Shown here: one piece after another, positions 5,545 through 47,087 of the stretch
Layout: each line of letters starts with the position of its first letter
Position numbering within the stretch: position 1 is the stretch's first letter
Origin: Solibacillus palustris
Lineage (GTDB): Bacteria; Bacillota; Bacilli; Bacillales_A; Planococcaceae
Assembly: GCF_022549215.1 (NCBI RefSeq)
Contig: NZ_JAKZFC010000004.1
Location: 62,001-126,000 of the forward strand
Length of the DNA stretch: 64,000 bases
Direction: 5' to 3'
Translations under genes and position numbers: made by a program
The notes under the pieces: model-generated
Told to the model about the DNA's origin: nothing
Seen by the model: only the letters and a program-made list of their open reading frames with translations
Databases searched by the model: none

Positions 5545-5559
5545 GGAACGGTGAAAACT

Positions 5560-6969
5560 ATGGGGAAAAATATAATTGAAAAAGTGTGGGAACAACATGT
5601 CGTACATCGTGAAGATGGCAAGCCAGATTTACTGTACATTGATTTACACTTAATTCATGAAGTAACAAGCCCGCAAGCGTTCGAGGGACTACGCTTAGCT
5701 GGCCGTAAAGTACGTCGCACAGACCTATGCTTTGCTACAATGGACCACAATGTACCAACAAAAAACCTACCAACAATTAACGATCCAATTGCGAAAAAGC
5801 AAATTATGACACTTGCTGAAAACGCAAAAGAGTTCGGAGTTGAACTTGCAGATATCGGTCACCCAGATCAAGGAATAGTACACGTTATTGGGCCAGAGCT
5901 AGGGCTTACGCAACCTGGTAAAACAATTGTTTGTGGTGATTCACATACAGCAACGCACGGCGCATTCGGTGCTATCGCATTCGGTATTGGTACTTCAGAG
6001 GTTGAGCACGTACTTTCAACACAAACATTATGGCAATTAAAGCCACCAACAATGGAAATCCGTGTTAACGGAGAGCTAGGTGTTGGCGTAACAGCAAAGG
6101 ATATCATTTTAGCAATTATTGCGAAATGGGGCATCGGCGTTGGTACAGGGCATATTGTCGAGTACACTGGGGAAGCAATTCGCAAACTATCAATGGAAGA
6201 ACGTATGACAATTTGTAATATGTCAATCGAAGCAGGTGCAAAAGCTGGTTTAATTTCACCAGACGAAACAACAGTAGAATTCCTACGTGGTCGTCGTCAT
6301 GCTCCACAAGGCGAAACGTTTGAAGAAGCGACAAAATACTGGTTAAGCCTAGCTTCAGATGCAGATGCAACATATGATGTTGTCCTTGAAATCGAAGCGG
6401 ATGAAATCGAACCAATCGTAACTTGGGGTACAAACCCAGCAATGGGCGTTGGCGTATCAAAAACGGTACCTACAGCGAGCGATTATGATAATGAAACAGA
6501 CAAAGCAGCTTTAGATAAAGCACTTGCCTATATGGATTTACAAGCAGGTCAAAAAATTACCGATATCGAGATTCAGCACGTGTTTATTGGCTCTTGTACA
6601 AACTCACGCATTAACGACTTACGCGCAGCAGCCGAAATCGTCAATGGTGAAAAACTAGCACCAGGCGTGACGGGCATTGTTGTTCCAGGATCTTGGTCAA
6701 CTAAAAAACAAGCAGAAGAAGAAGGCTTACACCAAATATTCATAGATGCAGGTTTTGAATGGCGCGAATCAGGCTGCTCGGCATGCTTAGGGATGAACGA
6801 AGACGTAATTCCTTATGGTGAGCGCTGTGCATCAACATCAAATCGTAATTTTGAAGGACGTCAAGGCGCGGGTGCTCGTACGCACTTAGTGTCACCAGCA
6901 ATGGCTGCAGCTGCGGCTATTCACGGTCGTTTCGTAGACGTTCGTCAACTACAAAAGCAAGAGGCGTAA
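5560..6969 (+). CDS. leuC: 3-isopropylmalate dehydratase large subunit
   Basis: Large subunit of isopropylmalate isomerase, an aconitase-family [4Fe-4S] enzyme converting 2- to 3-isopropylmalate. The cluster cysteines are visible in GSCTNSR and the later GCSACLGMN motif, with [10 protein letters not shown] earlier. ATG 5560 gives [10 protein letters not shown] and 469 residues, close to the family. A GTG at 5551, nearer the AAGGA sequence, is the alternative start. It is followed directly by leuD, its partner subunit. Confidence 0.96.
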
Positions 6970-6980
6970 GGAGAGATTGT

Positions 6981-7571
6981 ATGAAACCGATTAATATCGT
7001 GAACAGCATTTATGCGCCGCTAGATCGCAAAAATGTTGATACAGACCAAATTATTTCAAAAGAATTTTTAAAACGTATTGAGCGTACAGGCTTCGGTCAA
7101 TTCGTATTTTTTCACTGGCGTTTTGATGCGAACGACAATCCAATCGAGGACTTCGTATTAAACAAACCAGCATACAAAGGTGCAGAAATTTTAGTTGCGC
7201 AAGATAATTTCGGCTGTGGTTCATCACGTGAGCACGCACCATGGGCTATTTTAGATTATGGTTTCCGTGTCGTTATTGCACCAAGCTTTGCGGATATTTT
7301 CCACAATAACTGCTTCAAAAACGGGATTTTACCGATCAAATTAATGGAAGCAGAGTGTGACGAATTACTTGAAAAAGGGATCGCAGAAGCACAAGCAATC
7401 GAAGTCAACCTTGAAGCACAAACAGTAACAACTGGCTACGGTAAAATGTATACATTTACAATTGACCCGTATTATAAAGAAATGTTACTAAATGGCTGGG
7501 ATGAAATTTCGTTAACATTCAAATACGAAGAGCAAATCGCAGCATACGAGAAAAATCGTGTAGCATATTAA
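6981..7571 (+). CDS. leuD: 3-isopropylmalate dehydratase small subunit
   Basis: Swivel-domain subunit of isopropylmalate isomerase, completing the active site formed with LeuC. The 196-residue length is normal for Bacillales. Motifs include DTDQIISKEFLKR near the N-terminus and the conserved loop NFGCGSSREHAPWA. SD GGAGAG lies 7 bases before ATG 6981, and the gene starts 11 bases after leuC. It is the last gene of the operon, followed by a strong terminator. Confidence 0.96.
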   Translation: MKPINIVNSIYAPLDRKNVDTDQIISKEFLKRIERTGFGQFVFFHWRFDANDNPIEDFVLNKPAYKGAEILVAQDNFGCGSSREHAPWAILDYGFRVVIAPSFADIFHNNCFKNGILPIKLMEAECDELLEKGIAEAQAIEVNLEAQTVTTGYGKMYTFTIDPYYKEMLLNGWDEISLTFKYEEQIAAYEKNRVAY

Positions 7572-7576
7572 ATGTT

Positions 7577-7624
7577 TAGACTAGGTTAAAAGCACAGGCT
7601 TTCAACCTAGTCTATTTTATTTTT
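7577..7624 (+). terminator. Terminator of the ilv-leu operon
   Basis: A long near-perfect hairpin has arms TAGACTAGGTT and AACCTAGTCTA (7577-7614), then a T-rich run. It lies six bases after the leuD stop and closes the operon. Confidence 0.92.
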
Positions 7625-7713
7625 ACATAAATTGGTACGAGATAATATTGTTGCTTATAAAGATAAGTGGTATAATTTTACATAATTGTAAAGTTTAGAT
7701 TAGGGGTGTTTTC

Positions 7714-8286
7714 GTGAAAAGTTTTTGGGGCATTATAGGGATTATTTTTGTGGTCTTACTGATTATTGGCTTTATTATGAGTTATTGGCTGTATATCGTA
7801 GGCGCCATAGCTGCATTTTACTTTGTGAAATGGTTGCTAAAGTTTAAGAAAGAACGACAATTGCAAAAGATTGAGCAAGAAGAGCGGAGACGGGAGTTAG
7901 AGCATCAATCCACTCTTGAGTACAAAATGAATCGACTATTAAAGCTTGCCAACTATAATACGAATAATCCGAATGTTCGTCATGCCTATCAAACGAAATC
8001 TGTATTGAATTTGCAGGATTATTGGCATCAGTACATAGATTTACGCGCAAAACTTTCATTGAATGATACGAATACATATCGTGAAGAAAGTGTAATTGAT
8101 TTAATGTGCGATGAGCTGTTACAACGATTAGATAACGCTGAGTATGAAACAACGGATGTTATTAAGAAGGAATTTATTGAGTCTAATTTAACGCCTTTGT
8201 TAAAAGACGTAGTAGAAATTATGGATGGTATTAGCCCTGAAACATCGATTAACATTAATGCATATCAGCTGTTAAAAGCAAAGTAA
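7714..8286 (+). CDS. Membrane-anchored protein with cytoplasmic helical tail
   Basis: Family not recognised. The 190-residue protein has two adjacent N-terminal membrane segments (about residues 5-22 and 24-42). A highly charged coiled-coil-like stretch follows (about 44-70, rich in K, E, Q and R), then a soluble helical domain to the end. The GTG start at 7714 follows TTAGGGGTG. It is a single-gene unit between the leu operon terminator and its own terminator, with no functional clue from neighbours. Confidence 0.75.
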   Translation: MKSFWGIIGIIFVVLLIIGFIMSYWLYIVGAIAAFYFVKWLLKFKKERQLQKIEQEERRRELEHQSTLEYKMNRLLKLANYNTNNPNVRHAYQTKSVLNLQDYWHQYIDLRAKLSLNDTNTYREESVIDLMCDELLQRLDNAEYETTDVIKKEFIESNLTPLLKDVVEIMDGISPETSININAYQLLKAK

Positions 8287-8320
8287 GTGATAGAAAAACG
8301 GCATTTATTACACGCTCAAC

Positions 8321-8367
8321 GCCCCGCGACCTAAACATACCATTTGTTTAGGTCATGGGGCTTTTTA
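8321..8367 (+). terminator. Terminator after the membrane protein gene
   Basis: The hairpin has arms around GCCCC...GACCTAAACA and TGTTTAGGTC...GGGGC (8321-8361) followed by five T residues. The stretch from 8368 to 8510 contains nothing I can assign. Confidence 0.88.
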
Positions 8368-8510
8368 ATGTCCGTGATTTATGTGGAAGGAACATCCATT
8401 TTTCCCCTAGCTGCTCTTGCAGTGTATAAGGAGAAAACAATGATGCCTTGCCCATTCAAAATCGAAAAATGCTTTAAATGAATGTCGCTATTAATGAAAT
8501 GAAACTATCA

Positions 8511-8547
8511 AAAAAAGATTCTCGGCGCAACATTTGCCGAGAATCTT
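8511..8547 (-). terminator. Terminator of the peptide ABC ATPase gene (minus strand)
   Basis: Perfect 12-base-pair inverted repeat AAGATTCTCGGC / GCCGAGAATCTT (8515-8547). On the minus strand it is followed by a run of T residues (A run 8511-8516 on plus). It sits seven bases past the ATPase stop. Confidence 0.92.
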
Positions 8548-8553
8548 CCTGTA

Positions 8554-10290
8554 TTAAATCGCTACCCAATGCCCGTCAGAAACCTCAACAAGCTTCGTAT
8601 TCTCTACATCAAAACGATTGGACAATAACTGTTCTTCAGTCATAACTTCACGTTTTTTTTGTTTTTCGATTGCTGGGTCTGGAATTGGGATTGAATTTAA
8701 CAGCATTTTTGTATAAGGATGCTGTGGATTCGCATATAATTCTTCGCTTTCTGCTAGCTCCACAATTTTACCACCATACATCACAGCTACACGGTCACTA
8801 ATATGTTTAACCATCGATAAATCATGCGCAATAAATAAGTAGGTCAATCCAAGGCGTTGCTGCAAATCTTTAAGTAAATCGACAACTTGCTTCTGAATCG
8901 ATACATCAAGTGCAGATAATGGCTCATCACATACGATAAATTGAGGCTCAACTGCCAGTGCACGTGCAATGCCAATTCGCTGACGCTGACCACCACTAAA
9001 TTCGTGTGGGTAACGTAGAGCATGTTCTTTATTCAAGCCAACAAGTTCGAGCAATTCCTCTACACGTGCGCGGCGCTGTTCCTTTGATGTTGTTAGCTTG
9101 TGTAAATCTAACGCCTCGCCAATTATATCAAGCACCTTTTTACGTGGGTTTAATGACGAATAAGGGTCTTGGAAAATAATTTGCATATGACGACGCATGC
9201 ATTTTAATTCTTTTTTCGTTAAGCGGCTTACAGGAACCCCTTTATATAACACTTCACCATCTGTTGGCTCATGTAATTGAAGAAGCGTACGACCCGTAGT
9301 TGATTTACCAGAACCGGATTCTCCAACGAGACCTAAAGTTTCACCTGGATAAATTTGAAACGATAAATCGTCAACCGCTTTTAAGACATTGCCTTTCGCT
9401 AGTTCGAAATGCTTTGAAATATGCTTTACTTCAACAAGCGGTACATTAATATCAAGCTCCGGTGCTAAATTCGGCATCACTTTTGGTTCTTTCTTTTCAT
9501 GCAGTTTTGGTAGTGCGTTCAGTAAGCGTTTTGTATATTCATGTTGAGGATTTTCGAAAATGTCTTCCGTTGTCCCTTGCTCGACCACTTCGCCCTCCTT
9601 CATAACAATAACGCGGTCACACATACCTGCTACAACACCTAAATCATGGGTAATTAAAATGATTGATGTCCCAAGACGTTGCTGCATTTGCTTCATTAAT
9701 GAAAGAATTTGCGCTTGAATCGTAACATCGAGTGCAGTTGTTGGTTCGTCAGCTATGAGTAGGGAAGGATTACAAGCAAGTGCCATGGCAATCATTACGC
9801 GCTGTCGCATACCACCACTAAATTCATGTGGATATTGATTATATCGTTCTTCACTATTTTTAATTCCGACTAATTTTAATAGCTCAATTGTTTTGGTATG
9901 TGCTTCTTTTTTCGACAATCCTTGGTGCTTAATCAAGCCTTCTGCAATCTGTTCACCGATACGGATCGTTGGGTTCGTTGAAGTCATCGGATCTTGGAAA
10001 ATCATACTAATATCTTTTCCGCGAATCGCTTCCATTTGCTTTTCGCTTTGCTGTACGAGATTTTTTCCTTGAAATTCAATTGTACCTGATTTCAAATACG
10101 AAGGCGGGGAAGGTAATAATCGCATAATCGAACGCGCAGTTACACTTTTACCACTTCCTGATTCGCCTACAATGCCGACTGTTTCGCCAGCATTCACATG
10201 AAAGCTTACACCTTTTACAGCTTCAAATTCTGACTCATTCGTAATAAAAGAAACACGTAAGTCCTTTACGTTTAGCAGTTTTTCACTCAT
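8554..10290 (-). CDS. Dipeptide/oligopeptide ABC transporter ATPase, fused OppD-OppF type
   Basis: A single 578-residue polypeptide carries both ATPase halves of a nickel/peptide (Opp/Dpp) importer. Half 1 (about residues 1-270) has Walker A GESGSGKS at 42-49, signature FSGGMRQRV and Walker B LLIADEP. Half 2 (about 285-550) has a second [18 protein letters not shown] and FIVCDEP. Each half ends with the oligopeptide-type C-terminal region. It is divergent from the two permease genes and the binding-protein gene that start at 10444, which are its likely partners. Fused DppD/DppF-type ATPases are known in other bacteria. The substrate cannot be read from sequence. Confidence 0.93.
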
Positions 10291-10443
10291 TTTTTACTCA
10301 TCCTTTAAAAAATTTTGAATATTTGATATTGACGAAACGTTGTTACTAATACATACTGTACTAAACAGGTAGGAATTATGCAATATAAAGTTTTGAACTA
10401 TTCCGTATCATGTACATAAGAATAGTAGAAAGGGGTTGCACAG

Positions 10444-11847
10444 GTGAAAGTAGGGCAGATCTTGCATGATAGCTTTGAAAAAAACGCTTCACATAAAAGC
10501 TATTTCGTTGCCTATATTTTATTAGGCTTCATCGTGCATATTGTCACATATCTTCTATATATAAGTGGCGGTATGAAAACGAAAAACAGTAACAAAACTG
10601 TGGAAATCGAAAAGCAACTAGTTGATGATGGCCATGTACTTAGATGGACAAATGAATATGAAATACAAGAGCGAGCGAAAGCCACATTTTTTAAGCAGAC
10701 AATTGATGACAAAAAAATCAAGATGCAAGCACAGCAACTAACGCTGCAAAAATTAGAACGAGTGATAGCTAAAGAGCTTGCAGCACAGGGGATAGAGCAA
10801 AATACGTATAGTTATTATTTTGGGCAACTATTAAAAAAACCACAGTTTTTATTCATTAGTTTTATACCTGGAATATTCATGTATGTACTACTTTTTATTT
10901 CTAGTAATCCATTTATTCGATTTATCTTTGAAAGAATCCTTCAAAGTATTTTCGTAATTTTAGGGGTTGCGACACTTGTTTTTACGATTTTGTACATTTC
11001 GCCATTCGATCCTGCTCGTAACTTACTCGGAGCAGAGGCAACGGCAGAGCAAGTTGCCAACTTTAATCGATTATATGGCTTAGATCAACCGTATTTGGTA
11101 CAGCTATGGCATTCATTGTCTGGATTATTTACGTTTGATTTAGGAACATCATTTGCTGGGAAAGAAGATGTAACGCAGAGTATTTTAAATAAATTCCCGG
11201 TAACGTTGGAAATCGCGCTATTCTCGTTATTAATGGCGGTAGCAATTGCGATACCAGTAGGGATTATTTCAGCGGTACGTCCCAATTCATTTGTAGACTA
11301 TGTATTTATGTTGATTGCATTAATCGGTCTTTCGATTCCAAGCTTCTGGCAAGGGTTAATTTTCATTTTAACGTTCAGTTTAGAACTAAAATGGTTTCCA
11401 GCTACTTACAATCCAAACAACTGGATGTCGCTCGTTTTACCGATTGTCGTACTAGGAACTTCAATTACAGCTTCCATTGCACGTATGACACGTTCGAGTA
11501 TGCTGGAAGTAATTCATGAAGATTATATTATTACTGCAAAGGCAAAAGGATTGTCAGGGCGTAAAGTCATAACCAAACATGCGATTCGCAATGCGATGAT
11601 TCCGATTATTACGGTAATTGGTTTATTATTCGGTGGGATGCTAGGCGGAGCGTCTGTAACAGAAAAGGTATTTAATATTAGCGGTCTTGGTAGTTATATA
11701 GTAGATAAGCAATTCATTCCTGATATTCCTGCTATTTTAGGTGGGGTTGTTTACATTGCAATTACTATTTCAATCGTCAATATGCTTATAGATATTTTAT
11801 ACGCATTCTTTGATCCACGTATTCGTTCAAAAATGAAGAAGTCATAG
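10444..11847 (+). CDS. Peptide ABC transporter permease, OppB type with long N-terminal extension
   Basis: Inner-membrane permease of the Opp/Dpp importer. The C-terminal part, from about residue 160 (FERILQSIFVILGVATLVF), is a typical OppB domain ending in the EAA loop (YIITAKAKGLSGRKVITKHAIRNAMIPI) region near residues 360-385. The protein is 467 residues, against roughly 310-330 for usual OppB. The first 160 residues add a membrane segment near 20-40, a charged mostly helical stretch of about 80 residues, and another membrane segment near 137-155. The GTG start follows AAAGGGG. oppC-like follows 13 bases later. Confidence 0.9.
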   Translation: MKVGQILHDSFEKNASHKSYFVAYILLGFIVHIVTYLLYISGGMKTKNSNKTVEIEKQLVDDGHVLRWTNEYEIQERAKATFFKQTIDDKKIKMQAQQLTLQKLERVIAKELAAQGIEQNTYSYYFGQLLKKPQFLFISFIPGIFMYVLLFISSNPFIRFIFERILQSIFVILGVATLVFTILYISPFDPARNLLGAEATAEQVANFNRLYGLDQPYLVQLWHSLSGLFTFDLGTSFAGKEDVTQSILNKFPVTLEIALFSLLMAVAIAIPVGIISAVRPNSFVDYVFMLIALIGLSIPSFWQGLIFILTFSLELKWFPATYNPNNWMSLVLPIVVLGTSITASIARMTRSSMLEVIHEDYIITAKAKGLSGRKVITKHAIRNAMIPIITVIGLLFGGMLGGASVTEKVFNISGLGSYIVDKQFIPDIPAILGGVVYIAITISIVNMLIDILYAFFDPRIRSKMKKS

Positions 11848-11860
11848 GAGAGGGTAATAG

Positions 11861-13357
11861 GTGAAATTCATTTCTGATGTAAAACTGCTATTGAAAATCA
11901 CACAAGAATATGTAAATGCACAGTTTACCATTGCTTTTTCGGCGATTTTTTCAATGTTGTTTTTACTTTATAGTTTTAATTTTAATGAACAAAATTGGCG
12001 ACCAATTGTGTTAATATTTTTCGCCATATATGGAGTAACAACGCTTTATGTCGCCATTCTAGCATTATTGATAAAGAAGGATTTGGCTGCTCATAGTGAA
12101 ATTTCGAAGCGAACTAGATTGTTAGGAATCCCACTAATTTTAACGATTCTCGTAGGTAATGTGTTTGCGGCAGGCTTTGGCTTTATGCTCGCAACGAAAA
12201 ATAAAACAGTGGAATATACATTTATCGTTTATGCATTTAATACACAAATTTTTCTATTATTGATTTCAAGTTTAAATATTTTTAAACCGTATGTTGTTGA
12301 TACGTTTTTAGTGGCGATGGGGGCGTTTATTGCGCTAGCGGTGGTGTTTTTAGTCGTAGCGATTTTAGTTGCACGCCAAGTGACACCAATAACTGCACCT
12401 AAATGGATGTTTTGGCTTGGGGTTGTGCTACTTATCCCAGTTATTACGGGAAATTTCTTCTCCCTACTGGCGGGCATTACATTAATTCGCAAGGCACGCA
12501 ATGCGGATCCATCTGCCGTTGAAAAATGGCAAAAAATGTGGGATAAAATTTTGCGCAATACGATGGCATTATTCGGCTTATTTTTCATTGTCTTTATGTT
12601 TAGCTTATCCGTTATTAGCCGCTGGACTTTTGACTATGATTTTGCAGTGGAAAATAACTACAGTGCGCTATTATTAACGCCGACATTGGAATTTCCATTA
12701 GGTACAGATAACTTCGGGCGTGACTTGTTTTCAAGGATTGTGTTCGGGGCGCAAATTTCACTAATTGTTGGTTTTTGTGCCACAGTCATTCCCGCCTTAA
12801 TTGGTGGCGCGCTTGGTGCAATTTCGGGGTATTATGGAAAAAATACGGACAATATCATTATGCGCGCATTGGATATTTTATATGCGATTCCTGGTATTTT
12901 ATTAGCCATTGCGATTATTGCAGCATTTGGTGCGAATACAACGAACTTAATCATCGCATTAAGTGTCGGCGCAATCCCGACTTATGCAAGGACGATGCGT
13001 GCAAACGTCATGCAAATTTCCAACTATGAATTTGTAGAATCTGCTCGTGCTTTAGGTGCAAGTGACGGTGCGATCATATTCAAGCATATTGTTCCGAATG
13101 CACTTGCTCCAATGATTGTTAAAGCAACATTAACTATTGGTGGCGCTGTTATTTCTACAAGTAGTTTAAGTTTCCTTGGGCTTGGGATTGAACCTCATAT
13201 TCCAGAGTGGGGCAATATTTTAAAAGTCGGTAGCACATACCTTGAGTCACAATCTTATTTAGCCATTTTCCCAGGGTTATGTATTATGCTACTTGTTTTA
13301 TCATTTAACTTTTTCGGTGATGGCTTGCGTGATGCACTTGACCCGAAATCTAATTAA
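11861..13357 (+). CDS. Peptide ABC transporter permease, OppC type with multi-TM N-terminal extension
   Basis: Second permease of the importer. The canonical OppC domain begins around residue 225 (WDKILRNTMALFGLFFIVF), with the periplasmic-loop motif LGTDNFGRDLFSRIVFGA, the EAA loop around FVESARALGASDGAIIFKH, and the C-terminal FFGDGLRDALDP signature. The first ~220 residues are an extra block of about six hydrophobic segments, absent from ordinary OppC proteins of ~300 residues. Both permeases of this locus are extended, so the extensions may pair with each other or with the unusual binding protein. Confidence 0.9.
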   Translation: MKFISDVKLLLKITQEYVNAQFTIAFSAIFSMLFLLYSFNFNEQNWRPIVLIFFAIYGVTTLYVAILALLIKKDLAAHSEISKRTRLLGIPLILTILVGNVFAAGFGFMLATKNKTVEYTFIVYAFNTQIFLLLISSLNIFKPYVVDTFLVAMGAFIALAVVFLVVAILVARQVTPITAPKWMFWLGVVLLIPVITGNFFSLLAGITLIRKARNADPSAVEKWQKMWDKILRNTMALFGLFFIVFMFSLSVISRWTFDYDFAVENNYSALLLTPTLEFPLGTDNFGRDLFSRIVFGAQISLIVGFCATVIPALIGGALGAISGYYGKNTDNIIMRALDILYAIPGILLAIAIIAAFGANTTNLIIALSVGAIPTYARTMRANVMQISNYEFVESARALGASDGAIIFKHIVPNALAPMIVKATLTIGGAVISTSSLSFLGLGIEPHIPEWGNILKVGSTYLESQSYLAIFPGLCIMLLVLSFNFFGDGLRDALDPKSN

Positions 13358-13377
13358 CTTTTTGGAGGAATTTACTT

Positions 13378-15192
13378 ATGAACAAGAAATTATTTACGTT
13401 AGCTTCAACTGCAACAGTTGCAGCGGTGGCATTAGCAGGTTGTGTAGAAACAAAATCGGATGTAAAAGAAAATGATGGCAATACAACGGAAACAGCAAGC
13501 GCAAAACCATCAATTGAATTACTAGGGATGGCTTCTTCAGAGCAAGATATGAACATTGTACGTGACCAATTAGTGAAGAATGGCTTTGATGTTAAATTAA
13601 ACATTCAACCAGATTATGGCTCGTTCAAAGCTCAACAAGATGCCGGAAATTTTGATGTTTCGATATCAGGTTGGACTACAGTAACAGGTAACCCTGACTA
13701 TGCAGTACGTGGTTTATTTAAAACAGGTGGCGACTATAGCAATACTTCAGATGAAACGGTTGATAAATTAATTGATGAAGCAAGTACATTAACAGGTGAC
13801 GAAGCAAAAGAAAAGTATAAAGAGCTAGAACAAGCGTTAGTATTCGACAATGCTTATATCGCACCATTATATATATCTCAAAAATTCCAAGGGATATACA
13901 AAGCAGAAGTAAATCCAGATACAGTGCGTTTACCGAAATCACGCGCACAAGCTTGGGAAACAATCTCATTCAATGATGAAGGGAAAAATGATAGTGAGAC
14001 GTTAAATTTACACCAAGCGTTAGCATCATTAACTTCACTTGACCCTGTAAAAGGAAACGACGGCTCGATAAACACATTAAATACAAATATGTATGTACGA
14101 TTAGTAAATTTATCAGATACAGATGAAGTTGTTTCAGAGGGTTCATTATCATATGATCATGTAGCTGCTGAAAATAACGAAGAATACTATTTTGTATTAC
14201 GAGATGACATCAACTTTGCAAAAGTAGAAGGTGAAAAAGCAGTAGATACGGGTGATTTAGTATCGGCAGAGGATGTCGTGTTTTCATTAAACCGTGCAAA
14301 GGATAAAGAATCGGTACCAGATCACCGAACTTATTCAATTCACGAAAACATTGATACAGTAGAAATCGTATCAGATATTACAGCATTAGAATCAGTGAAA
14401 ACGGCTGACGGTAAATCTGTGTTAGAAGAGCTTTCTGATAAATTACCTGCAGCGATTTCAGAAATCGTAACAGATGAAAAAGCAGTAGATAACGCAGCTG
14501 GGAAATACCAAGTGGTAAAACTAACAACGCCAAAACCATTCCCACAAGTATTAAACTATTTAGCGCATCAATCTGGTGGTATTGTGTCAGAAGCAGCCGT
14601 AACAGCAGTCAATACGTTTGACGTAGCAAGCTATGATCCTAATAAGGATATCGCTTACGGTGACCAATCAACAGTGACAGAAGGCGCAACGTATGCCAAT
14701 CATTTAGCAGCATCAGGTCCATACATTTTAGTAAAGAAAAATGACTATGAAGCAAAATTCGTAAAAAACCCTGCTTACCAAGTAGGTACTGAAAATGAAC
14801 CGAAAATTAATAACATTTCAGTTCGCTTCATCCAAGACAACGACAGTGCACTTTCAGCATTACGTAACGGTGAAATCCACGTGTTACAATCAGTGCCAGA
14901 AACAAAAACAGATGTAGTAGAAGGGGATTCAAATTTACAATTGAAAACAGCGGACAGCAACGCAGTATCTTACTTATTATTTAACACAACTGGCCGTGAA
15001 ACTTCAAAATCAGCTGATTTACGTAAAGCCGTTCTTTACTCAATCAACCAAGATGAATTCATCAGCTACTACCAAGGAAAGAAAAAACCAGCCGTATCAA
15101 CAGTTTCTCCTTTAGTAGACACAGGTCTTAAATTAGAAGCAGATGCAGCAAAAGTAAAAGAATTCTTAAACGCATATAACGAATCTAAGTAA
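13378..15192 (+). CDS. Peptide-binding lipoprotein, SBP_bac_5 family, apparently circularly permuted
   Basis: Extracytoplasmic substrate-binding lipoprotein (604 residues) of the adjacent importer. Lipobox LAGC puts the lipidated Cys near residue 21, followed by an acidic linker. Residues ~40-190 look like the part that is normally C-terminal in this family: GFDVKLNIQPDYGSF, FDVSISGWTTVTGNPDYA, YSNTSDETVDKLIDEAS, YIAPLYISQKFQGIY. Residues ~205-600 look like the part that is normally N-terminal: LNLHQALASLTSLDPV, FVLRDDINFA, SAEDVVFSLNRAKD, GPYILVKKNDYEA, and it ends at DLRKAVLYSINQDEF plus a short tail. The order is therefore swapped relative to ordinary family members. The frame is continuous, with SD TTGGAGG. 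Confidence 0.88.
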   Translation: MNKKLFTLASTATVAAVALAGCVETKSDVKENDGNTTETASAKPSIELLGMASSEQDMNIVRDQLVKNGFDVKLNIQPDYGSFKAQQDAGNFDVSISGWTTVTGNPDYAVRGLFKTGGDYSNTSDETVDKLIDEASTLTGDEAKEKYKELEQALVFDNAYIAPLYISQKFQGIYKAEVNPDTVRLPKSRAQAWETISFNDEGKNDSETLNLHQALASLTSLDPVKGNDGSINTLNTNMYVRLVNLSDTDEVVSEGSLSYDHVAAENNEEYYFVLRDDINFAKVEGEKAVDTGDLVSAEDVVFSLNRAKDKESVPDHRTYSIHENIDTVEIVSDITALESVKTADGKSVLEELSDKLPAAISEIVTDEKAVDNAAGKYQVVKLTTPKPFPQVLNYLAHQSGGIVSEAAVTAVNTFDVASYDPNKDIAYGDQSTVTEGATYANHLAASGPYILVKKNDYEAKFVKNPAYQVGTENEPKINNISVRFIQDNDSALSALRNGEIHVLQSVPETKTDVVEGDSNLQLKTADSNAVSYLLFNTTGRETSKSADLRKAVLYSINQDEFISYYQGKKKPAVSTVSPLVDTGLKLEADAAKVKEFLNAYNESK

Positions 15193-15202
15193 TTTCTTAA
15201 AA

Positions 15203-15238
15203 GCCGAAGCCACGATTGATCGTGAGCTTCGGTTTTTT
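15203..15238 (+). terminator. Terminator of the peptide transporter operon
   Basis: The hairpin has arms GCCGAAGC(CACGA) and (TCGTG)AGCTTCGG followed by TTTTTT. The rest of the gap to 15447 shows a small CCAACA/TGTTGG repeat (15279-15293) and nothing else assignable. Confidence 0.9.
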
Positions 15239-15447
15239 GGTGAGATAAAAGTTATATTTATCTTGGAAATTTGTAACCAACATCGTGTTGGCTCCCCGTA
15301 TTGTAGCAGAACGCATTCTATGAAAATAAATCTCTCCCATCATATGGTGGAGAATCAAATATACATAAAATAAGGAAAATCAAACAACCAATGCTAATTT
15401 CATGTTACACTACTGTTACGATTGAAATTCTAGAAAGGTTGATTGAC

Positions 15448-17265
15448 ATGAATAACAAAAAATCAGCATTTTTACTATCAATAGCCGCAATTCCAGCTGC
15501 CGTGACATTTGTAAGTAATGATGTGTCTGCCAACAATACATATGACTGGACCCAAATTCAAGAAGTTATCAAATTAATCGATAAAATCGACCCGACAAGC
15601 ACTACATATAATTACTATTTGACAGAAGCGTACAATGCATATTATCGCCTGTCAGAATATGAGCGCCAATATGTTTCGAATTCTTCTCGCTTATTTAATT
15701 ATTATAATAATACAGACTCTAATGGTAATTATATACAAAATAGTTTAGATGTCTTTATTAAAAAAATGAATTCGATTTCGATTAGTAAATCTTCATTTTT
15801 ACGTGATGTAAAAGAAGCGAATCGTTATTATGATGCCTTATCCGCAGCACAAAAGGCGGGGCTTTCACAATACTATGTGAAGCAGCTTACTACATATAAT
15901 ACAAATATTGCTAAAATGACAGAGGTGGAAAATAGCTTCAATGCGCTCGATGTAATGGATGCTAACTATGTGGACAATTATTTAGCTGCGTTACGCGACT
16001 ACAATAGGCTCGATTATAGCTATCGTAAGCTAATCGAAACAGTAGTAAACAAAAAGATAGAGCAATACAATCAATACCATAGCGCAGATTATAATCGTTC
16101 CATTGCACAGCAGGTTATTACAGCTATATCCAAATTGACGACTTCATCAAATGGAGCGGATGTTGTGAAAGTTCGCGCCTTATATAACGGGCTAACAACC
16201 ATCCAAAAAAGCTATATCTCGAACTATCGCGACCTGCAATATATCGAGGATGTACAAAAGAATATCGAAAATGGCTGGAATCCCGACTATGAAAATGAAG
16301 ATGAAGAGGATATCCCAAAAGACGAGATTTCTGTCATTGAAAGTGGAACTACCTACACGGTTTATTTGCCAGTTGCAAAAATGAAAAAGCATTCCTCTAC
16401 TACGATTAAAGTGTCTGATACAATCACGCTGTCGATTCCAAAGTCAGCCATTCCTGAATCAAATAAAAGTGCCGTAGTCGTGATAACAATTGACGATTAT
16501 GAGGATTATGGATTAAATTTTAATGCAACAATGTACGATAAGGAACTTGAATTTTCAACGTATATCGATATTATTGTCAAAGGCTTGAGCGCAAGCGATA
16601 CGATTTTAAAAGTGGCAGAAAACGGGGATACTGTGGCCGCGCCATTTAAACGTGCATCACAGCAACATACGATTAAAACAAAGACATCAAATGAATATGT
16701 CGTTGAAAATGTGGAGCCGCACTTTTATGATATCGCCAAAGAACCACTCCAATACGAAATTATGCAATTAGCAAAGCGTAAAATTGTATCGGGCTTAGAA
16801 GAAAATTATTACAAGCCTAAAGCAAACGTAACGATTGCACAATACGCAGTGATGATTAGCCGCGCGATGGATTTAACGACATCGGACCATGCTACATATA
16901 GCGACATTCGCGGGAAATGGTTTGAAGATGCCATTGAATCACTTATTGCAGCCAATATTTTAGACAGCAATTCAGGCAGCAATTTTTACCCAAATCAAAT
17001 CGTGACACGAAAGCAAGCGGCACAAATGTCCATTCGAATGTTAGAGCATGCAGGAGTTGCCATTACTGAACCTAACTATTCAGCCGTGGCGTTCAAAGAT
17101 TTTAAACAAATGACAGGAACTGAACGTTATTATGCGGCAGTTGCTAATGAATTAGGAATTTTCGGTGGGAAAGCAGATGGTCGCTTTGATCCAAACGGTC
17201 AATTAACACGCTCTCAAATGGCAAAAGTTTTATACCGTACACTACAAATTGCTAAAATGATGTAA
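15448..17265 (+). CDS. Secreted cell-surface protein with three C-terminal SLH domains
   Basis: Exported 605-residue protein with a Sec signal peptide (about residues 1-30, ending ...NDVSA). A long N-terminal helical region rich in Y, N and K follows (about 35-275), then a beta-rich middle domain (about 285-430), then three S-layer homology repeats (about 445-600: HFYDIAKEPLQYEIM, TYSDIRGKWFEDAIESL, AFKDFKQMTGTERYYAAV). SLH domains attach proteins to pyruvylated secondary wall polymer. The ATG at 15448 follows AAAGG; a longer frame from 15391 lacks an SD and would precede the signal peptide. The ligand or enzymatic role is unknown. Confidence 0.88.
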   Translation: MNNKKSAFLLSIAAIPAAVTFVSNDVSANNTYDWTQIQEVIKLIDKIDPTSTTYNYYLTEAYNAYYRLSEYERQYVSNSSRLFNYYNNTDSNGNYIQNSLDVFIKKMNSISISKSSFLRDVKEANRYYDALSAAQKAGLSQYYVKQLTTYNTNIAKMTEVENSFNALDVMDANYVDNYLAALRDYNRLDYSYRKLIETVVNKKIEQYNQYHSADYNRSIAQQVITAISKLTTSSNGADVVKVRALYNGLTTIQKSYISNYRDLQYIEDVQKNIENGWNPDYENEDEEDIPKDEISVIESGTTYTVYLPVAKMKKHSSTTIKVSDTITLSIPKSAIPESNKSAVVVITIDDYEDYGLNFNATMYDKELEFSTYIDIIVKGLSASDTILKVAENGDTVAAPFKRASQQHTIKTKTSNEYVVENVEPHFYDIAKEPLQYEIMQLAKRKIVSGLEENYYKPKANVTIAQYAVMISRAMDLTTSDHATYSDIRGKWFEDAIESLIAANILDSNSGSNFYPNQIVTRKQAAQMSIRMLEHAGVAITEPNYSAVAFKDFKQMTGTERYYAAVANELGIFGGKADGRFDPNGQLTRSQMAKVLYRTLQIAKMM

Positions 17266-46463: not shown

Positions 46464-47087
46464 TTTCCCGTACTCCTTTACTTCACATTCACTTAGTATA
46501 TCGAACAAACGATGTAAGCTCAATTCTTTACAAATACGAACGTATATGCTAGTATAATAATGTGCTATTTTAGGTAGTACTATAAATAAATTGGCATTTC
46601 TGCTAGTGTTTTTGAGGATACTTATTCACACTGGCGCAAGCTTAAGGGCTGCAAGGACATAGTAGCAGGTAGGGACTATGTTGCTTAAGTTAGAAAAGAT
46701 TAGTGGAATTTTACCGCGGTTAAAACAGAAGGACATGCACTTCTAATGATATTAATTCCCCGGATGATCGGGTTGAGACTTACATTTATTTATACAACTA
46801 TCTATTAAATACTAAAGGGGGTTCCTGACATTCAGGAGCCCCCTTGTCCAATATATTAGGCAACTACATACATGTGGTTGCTTTTTACATTGGACAAAAT
46901 AAAAATCCTTTCAGCTGCATAAGCCGAGTGTGATTTTTGCATTTTGATTCTATTCCCAGTTTCCAGTATAAATAACCGACATACACTAGGCAGAAAAGTA
47001 TATTCTTTTCTAAATGGGCATTTCCAATAGGTTAATTTTTCAAGTACACATACAGATAGCAAGACAATAAAAATGGGAGGGAAAAGA
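46464..47087 (+). other. 624-base gap with several RNA-like inverted repeats
   Basis: No gene supported. Structures seen are CTTAAG (46641-46646) / CTTAAG (46684-46689) enclosing ACATAGT (46657-46663) / ACTATGT (46675-46681); a strong GC hairpin AAGGGGGTTCCTGA / TCAGGAGCCCCCTT (46814-46844) without a good T tract; and GCAACTACAT / CATGTGGTTGC (46860-46881) followed by TTTTT, which is a plausible terminator. It may be the noncoding end of a lost mobile element or an RNA leader. Confidence 0.4.
46860..46886 (+). terminator. Short terminator before the CotB-like gene
   Basis: GCAAC-ACAT / ATGT-GTTGC stem then five T residues. Confidence 0.65.

Follow-up and report, generated by a model that had tools for sequence, protein, structure and literature searches.

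How should a peptide-binding lipoprotein be understood when its sequence elements appear to run in the wrong order? The question is raised by a 64,000-nucleotide stretch of the Solibacillus palustris genome (contig NZ_JAKZFC010000004.1, positions 62,001 to 126,000), here called the window, whose positions are used throughout. A preliminary description had proposed a binding protein with permuted lobe order, in which residues ~40-190 carry elements of the C-terminal end of SBP_bac_5 proteins and residues ~205-600 carry those of the N-terminal end, in a continuous frame with its own signal, Shine-Dalgarno sequence and terminator. The gene and its parts are as follows.

13364 to 13369, forward strand: Shine-Dalgarno-like GGAGGA, read directly, eight bases ahead of the ATG at 13378
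13378 to 15192, forward strand: circularly permuted SBP_bac_5 lipoprotein (GisD-type), 604 amino acids (ORF, Pfam, PDB and profile comparisons)
13378 to 13443, forward strand: signal peptide and LAGC lipobox, with Cys22 encoded at 13441-13443
13501 to 13947, forward strand: residues 42-190, the C-terminal part of canonical proteins (PDB matches, profile comparisons)
13690 to 13698, forward strand: residues 105-107, with N105/D107 here, exchanged in Staphylococcus-type homologues
13948 to 14022, forward strand: residues 191-215, linking the former C-terminus to the former N-terminus (hhalign)
14023 to 15174, forward strand: residues 216-599, corresponding to the N-terminal portion (GsiB ~36-340) of canonical proteins (profile comparisons)
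15199 to 15237, forward strand: intrinsic terminator hairpin with T-run (folding against shuffles)

The ORF at 13378-15192 opens with ATG and encodes 604 amino acids, and all the signals claimed for it were found: GGAGGA, LAGC with Cys22, and the hairpin at 15199-15237. For the 53-nt terminator stretch the folding energy is -24.5 kcal/mol (z -5.9), and 0 of 200 shuffles were equally stable. A loosely defined lipobox-like motif occurs in 83 of 84 homologous rows, the exception (L039) reading LFGC, and Cys22 is kept in at least 98% of the rows.

In Pfam, SBP_bac_5 (PF00496, cluster C) was the sole family matched by the lipoprotein at E <= 1 (E 3e-40; 138.9 bits against a cut-off of 32.4), and at the same threshold no homology to the cluster B sugar-binding families was found. 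The preliminary description had predicted two PF00496 hits in swapped order. Two stretches were indeed counted, with coordinates for the better one only (residues 265-595 on profile positions 14-271 of 368), and the swapped order of two SBP_bac_5-type matches was borne out by independent profiles and by PDB sequences. First, phmmer against the PDB aligned residues 434-558 with 189-310 of 5u4o and residues 59-163 with 380-488 of the same entry, and a seven-sequence profile gave the same swapped matches as the single query. Second, a family profile was run against E. coli GsiB (named record L089) and three canonical proteins of the host genome, and the matches were rotated in all four. Third, hhalign against a single canonical profile returned two matches, at probability 99.65 for residues 216-599 (canonical positions 11-315) and at 91.6 for residues 42-172 (positions 320-463), as the preliminary description had supposed for both segments. 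When the canonical profile was doubled, the two fused into one match of residues 42-599 on positions 320-802 of 974, covering 462 columns (probability 99.83, E 7e-30). All five permuted proteins from different hosts gained from the doubled profile, whereas for the three canonical controls the alignment to GsiB was collinear along almost the entire protein, and doubling brought no gain. The collinear N-to-C order of canonical SBP_bac_5 members is thus not what this protein has; the order is swapped. A collinear PF00496 match with residues 40-190 from another family, the outcome that the preliminary description had set against its own reading, was not what we found.

The rotated order is not peculiar to this gene. 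The homologue set comprised 84 full-length rows including the window; with 11 genomes entered twice, it holds 73 distinct sequences in 32 clusters at 90% identity, and it reaches down to 38% identity with the window protein. In the reverse test, in which a canonical profile was run on each row, the order was swapped in 84 of 84 (73 distinct), in agreement with the earlier claim that no assembly join is involved. Within the host's own family, 165 of 261 genomes (own included) were matched at E <= 1e-10, and full-length copies in the window order number 108, from 107 of the 261 (own included), at 60-100% identity; one of these copies (G165) has an internal stop. The remaining matches listed for this family are partial and mostly ordinary relatives at 29-33% identity, mostly over residues ~435-597, and among the matches listed, permuted-type genes are also represented by a few short pieces (e.g., in G179 and G048, and at a second position in G215). 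At E <= 1e-25, relatives were found in 35 of 398 genomes at the class level (own included; one only over residues 385-603) and in 4 of 398 at the phylum level (own included), so that further Bacilli families besides that of the host possess the protein. Named relatives come from Solibacillus, Metasolibacillus, Ureibacillus, an Oscillospiraceae MAG, Metabacillus and Staphylococcus aureus. Many related bacteria have the rearranged version, apparently staphylococci among them. No relative of the permuted protein was detected in the viral contigs scanned with a seven-sequence alignment, and the ORFs of at least 120 amino acids in 29 stretches around homologous loci included no binding-protein gene in tandem or of double length. 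That a normal gene was rearranged during assembly or cloning, which we regard as next to inconceivable, is refuted by the same order in 84 of 84 rows and by the 108 full-length copies counted in 107 of the 261 family genomes.

Where was the canonical chain opened? Residues 42-172 align with GsiB ~345-488, residues 173-190 only loosely, and the cut lies between GsiB precursor residues ~340 and ~345 (KARELLKE / AGYP / NGFSTTLW), so that almost nothing of the canonical sequence has been lost. The opening ~63% of a canonical binding protein corresponds to residues 216-599 and the closing ~30% to residues 42-172; within 216-599 the permuted protein has ~80 extra residues, chiefly around ~333-375 and ~411-435. 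When permuted sequences were taken singly, the N-terminal match was weak (probability 2.6-7.6 in the five tested), and the case therefore rests on the profile and its collinear extension. This modest match of the N-terminal segment when taken alone (91.6 even with the profile) would favour a fusion of a C-terminally truncated SBP_bac_5 protein (residues 205-604) behind an unrelated or duplicated domain (residues 40-190). However, the N-terminal segment is exactly the part missing from the C-terminal segment, leaving about four residues at the cut unmatched, no substantial canonical part is present twice, and the order is constant in every row; we therefore consider a fusion very improbable. 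At the level of sequence, the lipoprotein is confirmed as a complete circular permutant of SBP_bac_5. Of the proposed permuted lobe order, the circular permutation stands, but the lobes are not simply swapped; there is a single cut at GsiB ~340/345.

What does this rearrangement mean for the fold? AlphaFold2 on the seven-sequence alignment gave a pLDDT of 34 and a pTM of 0.30; a predicted structure at pLDDT 34 is unusable, and the fold assignment therefore rests on sequence homology, which covers residues 42-599. In canonical SBP_bac_5 proteins, the N- and C-terminal ends sit together in lobe I. In the permuted protein these old ends would be joined at residues ~191-215, and new ends would be opened between the K-A-R-E-L-L-type helix and the following strand of domain III; by the domain limits of OppA/DppA, we take GsiB ~340/345 to fall in this domain, which is part of lobe II. 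Given the whole-length homology, the two-lobed fold and the hinge closing on the ligand are probably unchanged. Because the cut site would place the new N-terminus in domain III, the lipid anchor is predicted to leave from lobe II instead of lobe I.

The permuted lipoprotein gene is the last of a conserved importer operon, with two permease genes upstream and a divergent gene for a fused ATPase.

8554 to 10290, reverse strand: fused two-domain ATPase (GisA-type, OppD-OppF like), 578 amino acids, divergent (ORF, Pfam)
10444 to 11847, forward strand: permease (GisB-type), 467 amino acids (Pfam)
10444 to 10911, forward strand: GisB-type permease extension, residues 1-156, two hydrophobic segments around an 87-residue loop
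11861 to 13357, forward strand: permease (GisC-type), 498 amino acids, with OppC_N/BPD_transp_1 after the extension
11861 to 12505, forward strand: GisC-type permease extension, residues 1-215, mostly hydrophobic, preceding OppC_N/BPD_transp_1

On either side of this locus lie adjoining Aconitase and Aconitase_C genes (5551-7571, leuCD-like by order), upstream of the ATPase, and a gene for a large S-layer-homology (SLH) domain protein (15391-17265), the next downstream of the lipoprotein. The permease genes and the permuted protein gene stand together in the loci examined (29 stretches); in 26 of these, the permease-permease-lipoprotein operon is intact with one ATPase gene divergent from it, and in L076 and L039 two separate ATPases are located inside the operon. 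In L039, from the Oscillospiraceae MAG, genes for a DUF4438 protein and an M24/prolidase-type peptidase (7513-9520) follow the operon. In a linear S. aureus 'plasmid' record (L040; NZ_CP077929.1, 15231-29845), the gis locus appears duplicated in inverted orientation, with broken gene copies; this may be an assembly product.

Neither of the N-terminal permease extensions matched a Pfam family at E <= 0.01. Among the 398 class genomes the second one was detected in 33, all of which belong to the 35 that have the permuted protein; the two others are a Staphylococcus-type genome with a shorter permease and the genome with the partial protein match. This co-occurrence fits joint inheritance of the operon and does not necessarily mean direct contact. 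A periplasmic loop of MalF serves the docking of maltose-binding protein, and by analogy the permease extensions may have a docking role for the permuted lipoprotein.

Which importer is this? The gisA and gisBCD-ggt genes of S. aureus have been reported to import glutathione and glutathione disulfide (PMC10355420). The Gis-type layout, an ATPase gene divergent from permease, permease and lipoprotein genes, is found in the window, and the two systems have in common the divergent ATPase, two extended permeases and a lipoprotein. Three loci assigned to a Staphylococcus type from their layout (L069-L071) have a divergent ATPase, two permeases and a permuted protein, followed by an ORF of 669-670 amino acids, which in L069, the one locus tested, is a gamma-glutamyltranspeptidase (PF01019, E 8e-158). 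This is the arrangement published for S. aureus gisA and gisBCD-ggt (PMC10355420). The Staphylococcus-type copies have the permuted order and 38-41% identity to the window protein, and window residues 21-225, which span the join, have a 43% match in a named record from S. aureus. From the gis-ggt layout and this match across the join, we infer that GisD itself very likely belongs to the permuted family. Unlike S. aureus GisABCD-Ggt, the window operon has no ggt, adjoining or otherwise within it; one ggt is located elsewhere in the same genome. A further difference lies in the motif W-TTV-(T/F)-G-x-P-x-Y, which has N105/D107 in 81 of 84 rows and D105/N107 in the three Staphylococcus-type rows, so that GNPDY in the window protein stands against GDPNY in theirs. 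Because the acidic residue occupies two alternative places, ligand or binding mode may differ, and a change of specificity or substrate is possible.

A second line of evidence comes from the ATPase-permease intergenic region.

10329 to 10357, forward strand: promoter-like TTGACG-17-CATACT (promoter scan; conserved in related intergenic regions)
10362 to 10386, forward strand: conserved operator-like element TAAACAGGTAGGAATTATGCAATAT, CymR-box-like (intergenic conservation, pattern and matrix searches)

As a class, promoter-like sites were fewer in this region than in shuffles. The operator-like element follows TTGACG-17-CATACT and reads TATACTATACnnnTnGGAATTATACAATAT family-wide, and GGAATTAT is the element of the permease-lipoprotein operon promoter. 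From the CymR consensus, we take TAAACAGGTAGGAATTATGCAATAT to resemble a CymR box. Scoring was applied to 25 of the 29 stretches (the other four had no gene pair or an intergenic region that was empty or shorter than 100 bases), and 19 of the 25 exceeded the 99.9th percentile of simple shuffles; this figure only describes conservation, because the consensus was drawn by eye from the same sequences. The operator was unrecognisable in the intergenic regions of the Staphylococcus-type loci.

A 22-base pattern gave 11 sites in the host genome at <=3 mismatches, against 7 for the reversed control. At <=2 mismatches there were only two, one at the importer operon and one 67 bases before a gene for a 460-aa transporter of the SDF family, whose plasmid homologues are annotated as L-cystine transporter (best 65% identity). 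When 12 other genomes were searched at <=2 mismatches, the pattern turned up in the gis intergenic regions and at other sites mostly inside genes; the short pattern alone is therefore weak, and a matrix test is better evidence. The matrix was built from 16 operators, the window's own being left out, with 238 other upstream regions as background. Nine of 21 regions upstream of cystine-transporter homologues scored above the background 99th percentile, two of the nine with the best site on the reverse strand (L131 and L145), and 12 fell below; six of the 21 exceeded the background maximum (rank test 1.4e-9, for genomes that are related and not independent, L092 and L128 being one species). In B. 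cereus, the cystine transporter gene tcyP has been grouped with the putative regulon of CymR (PMC3519770). The operator-like element thus suggests sulfur (cysteine-responsive) control of the importer operon. Rfam at gathering scores revealed no riboswitch or T-box in the window; the sole match was the sRNA BsrC (RF01410) at 46606-46694 on the reverse strand (49.9 bits, gathering 38).

An importer function is inferred because of the S. aureus GisABCD system and the promoter element held in common with the cystine-transporter gene. By analogy, the permuted lipoprotein would most likely capture a small sulfur peptide, e.g., glutathione or its disulfide, and hand it to the two extended permeases, with uptake powered by the divergent fused ATPase. 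We also weighed the possibility that the permuted protein is real but binds ordinary di- or oligopeptides, or another ligand, and not glutathione or sulfur compounds. The ggt gene does not adjoin the window operon, the exchange of N105/D107 for D105/N107 points the same way, and the DUF4438 protein and M24 peptidase encoded after the L039 operon would fit general peptide use; against this stand the promoter element common to the cystine-transporter gene and the homology of the whole operon to the glutathione importer layout. Such a ligand is a serious possibility, if not the one that we would expect. The best explanation of the whole is, in our judgement and with good though not complete confidence, that the protein is the lipoprotein of a Gis-type importer and a natural, complete circular permutant, with a sulfur peptide as its putative ligand and with fold and anchor as predicted above.

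How does this compare with known binding proteins? E. coli GsiB, an SBP_bac_5 protein for glutathione, is homologous to the window protein over its full length after rotation, but has the canonical order, whereas the window protein is cut at GsiB ~340/345, is ~80 residues longer over 216-599 and is lipid-anchored. GsiB appears in the PDB as 1uqw under its former name, YliB. A rearranged order between homologous binding proteins is known from the betaine-binding proteins OpuAC and ProX, which belong to another cluster and exchange whole domains. The permuted lipoprotein is presumably cut, judging from the domain limits, in domain III, unlike Tp0684 of Treponema pallidum. That protein, Tp0684/MglB-2, is described as a circularly permuted binding protein in PMC4990184. 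The window protein resembles it, by sequence, in having a circularly permuted binding-protein fold, but Tp0684 has a cluster B (sugar) fold with a rearranged N lobe, and the permuted lipoprotein belongs to cluster C.

Among the papers listed by searches of the open-licence PMC literature, no permuted SBP_bac_5 protein was found. In word searches, 'permut' was absent from the main texts of two Gis papers, including PMC10355420, and a preprint on finding permutants (PMC12667903) had no mention of ABC transporter, oligopeptide or lipoprotein. As far as we searched, the Gis family has been functionally studied in one species and its permutation has apparently gone unrecognised. Because permutation is known in other clusters and none was found for SBP_bac_5, the protein represents a new topological variant. 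We tentatively speculate, with rather more doubt than conviction, that Gis proteins could form a topological class 'cluster Cc' (cf. the published 'Bc'), in which a lobe-II-anchored lipoprotein co-evolved with a permease docking platform and of which GisD would be the founding member.

SBP_bac_5 peptide-binding proteins are common bacterial surface proteins and models for hinge-bending receptors, and a natural, long-conserved permutant tests which features of the chain order matter in folding, anchoring and docking. Permuted SBP_bac_5 proteins can appear truncated in linear profile searches, and the modelling of Staphylococcus GisD would change if GisD is permuted. The pairing of a permuted lipoprotein with extended permeases leads to a specific and testable docking hypothesis.
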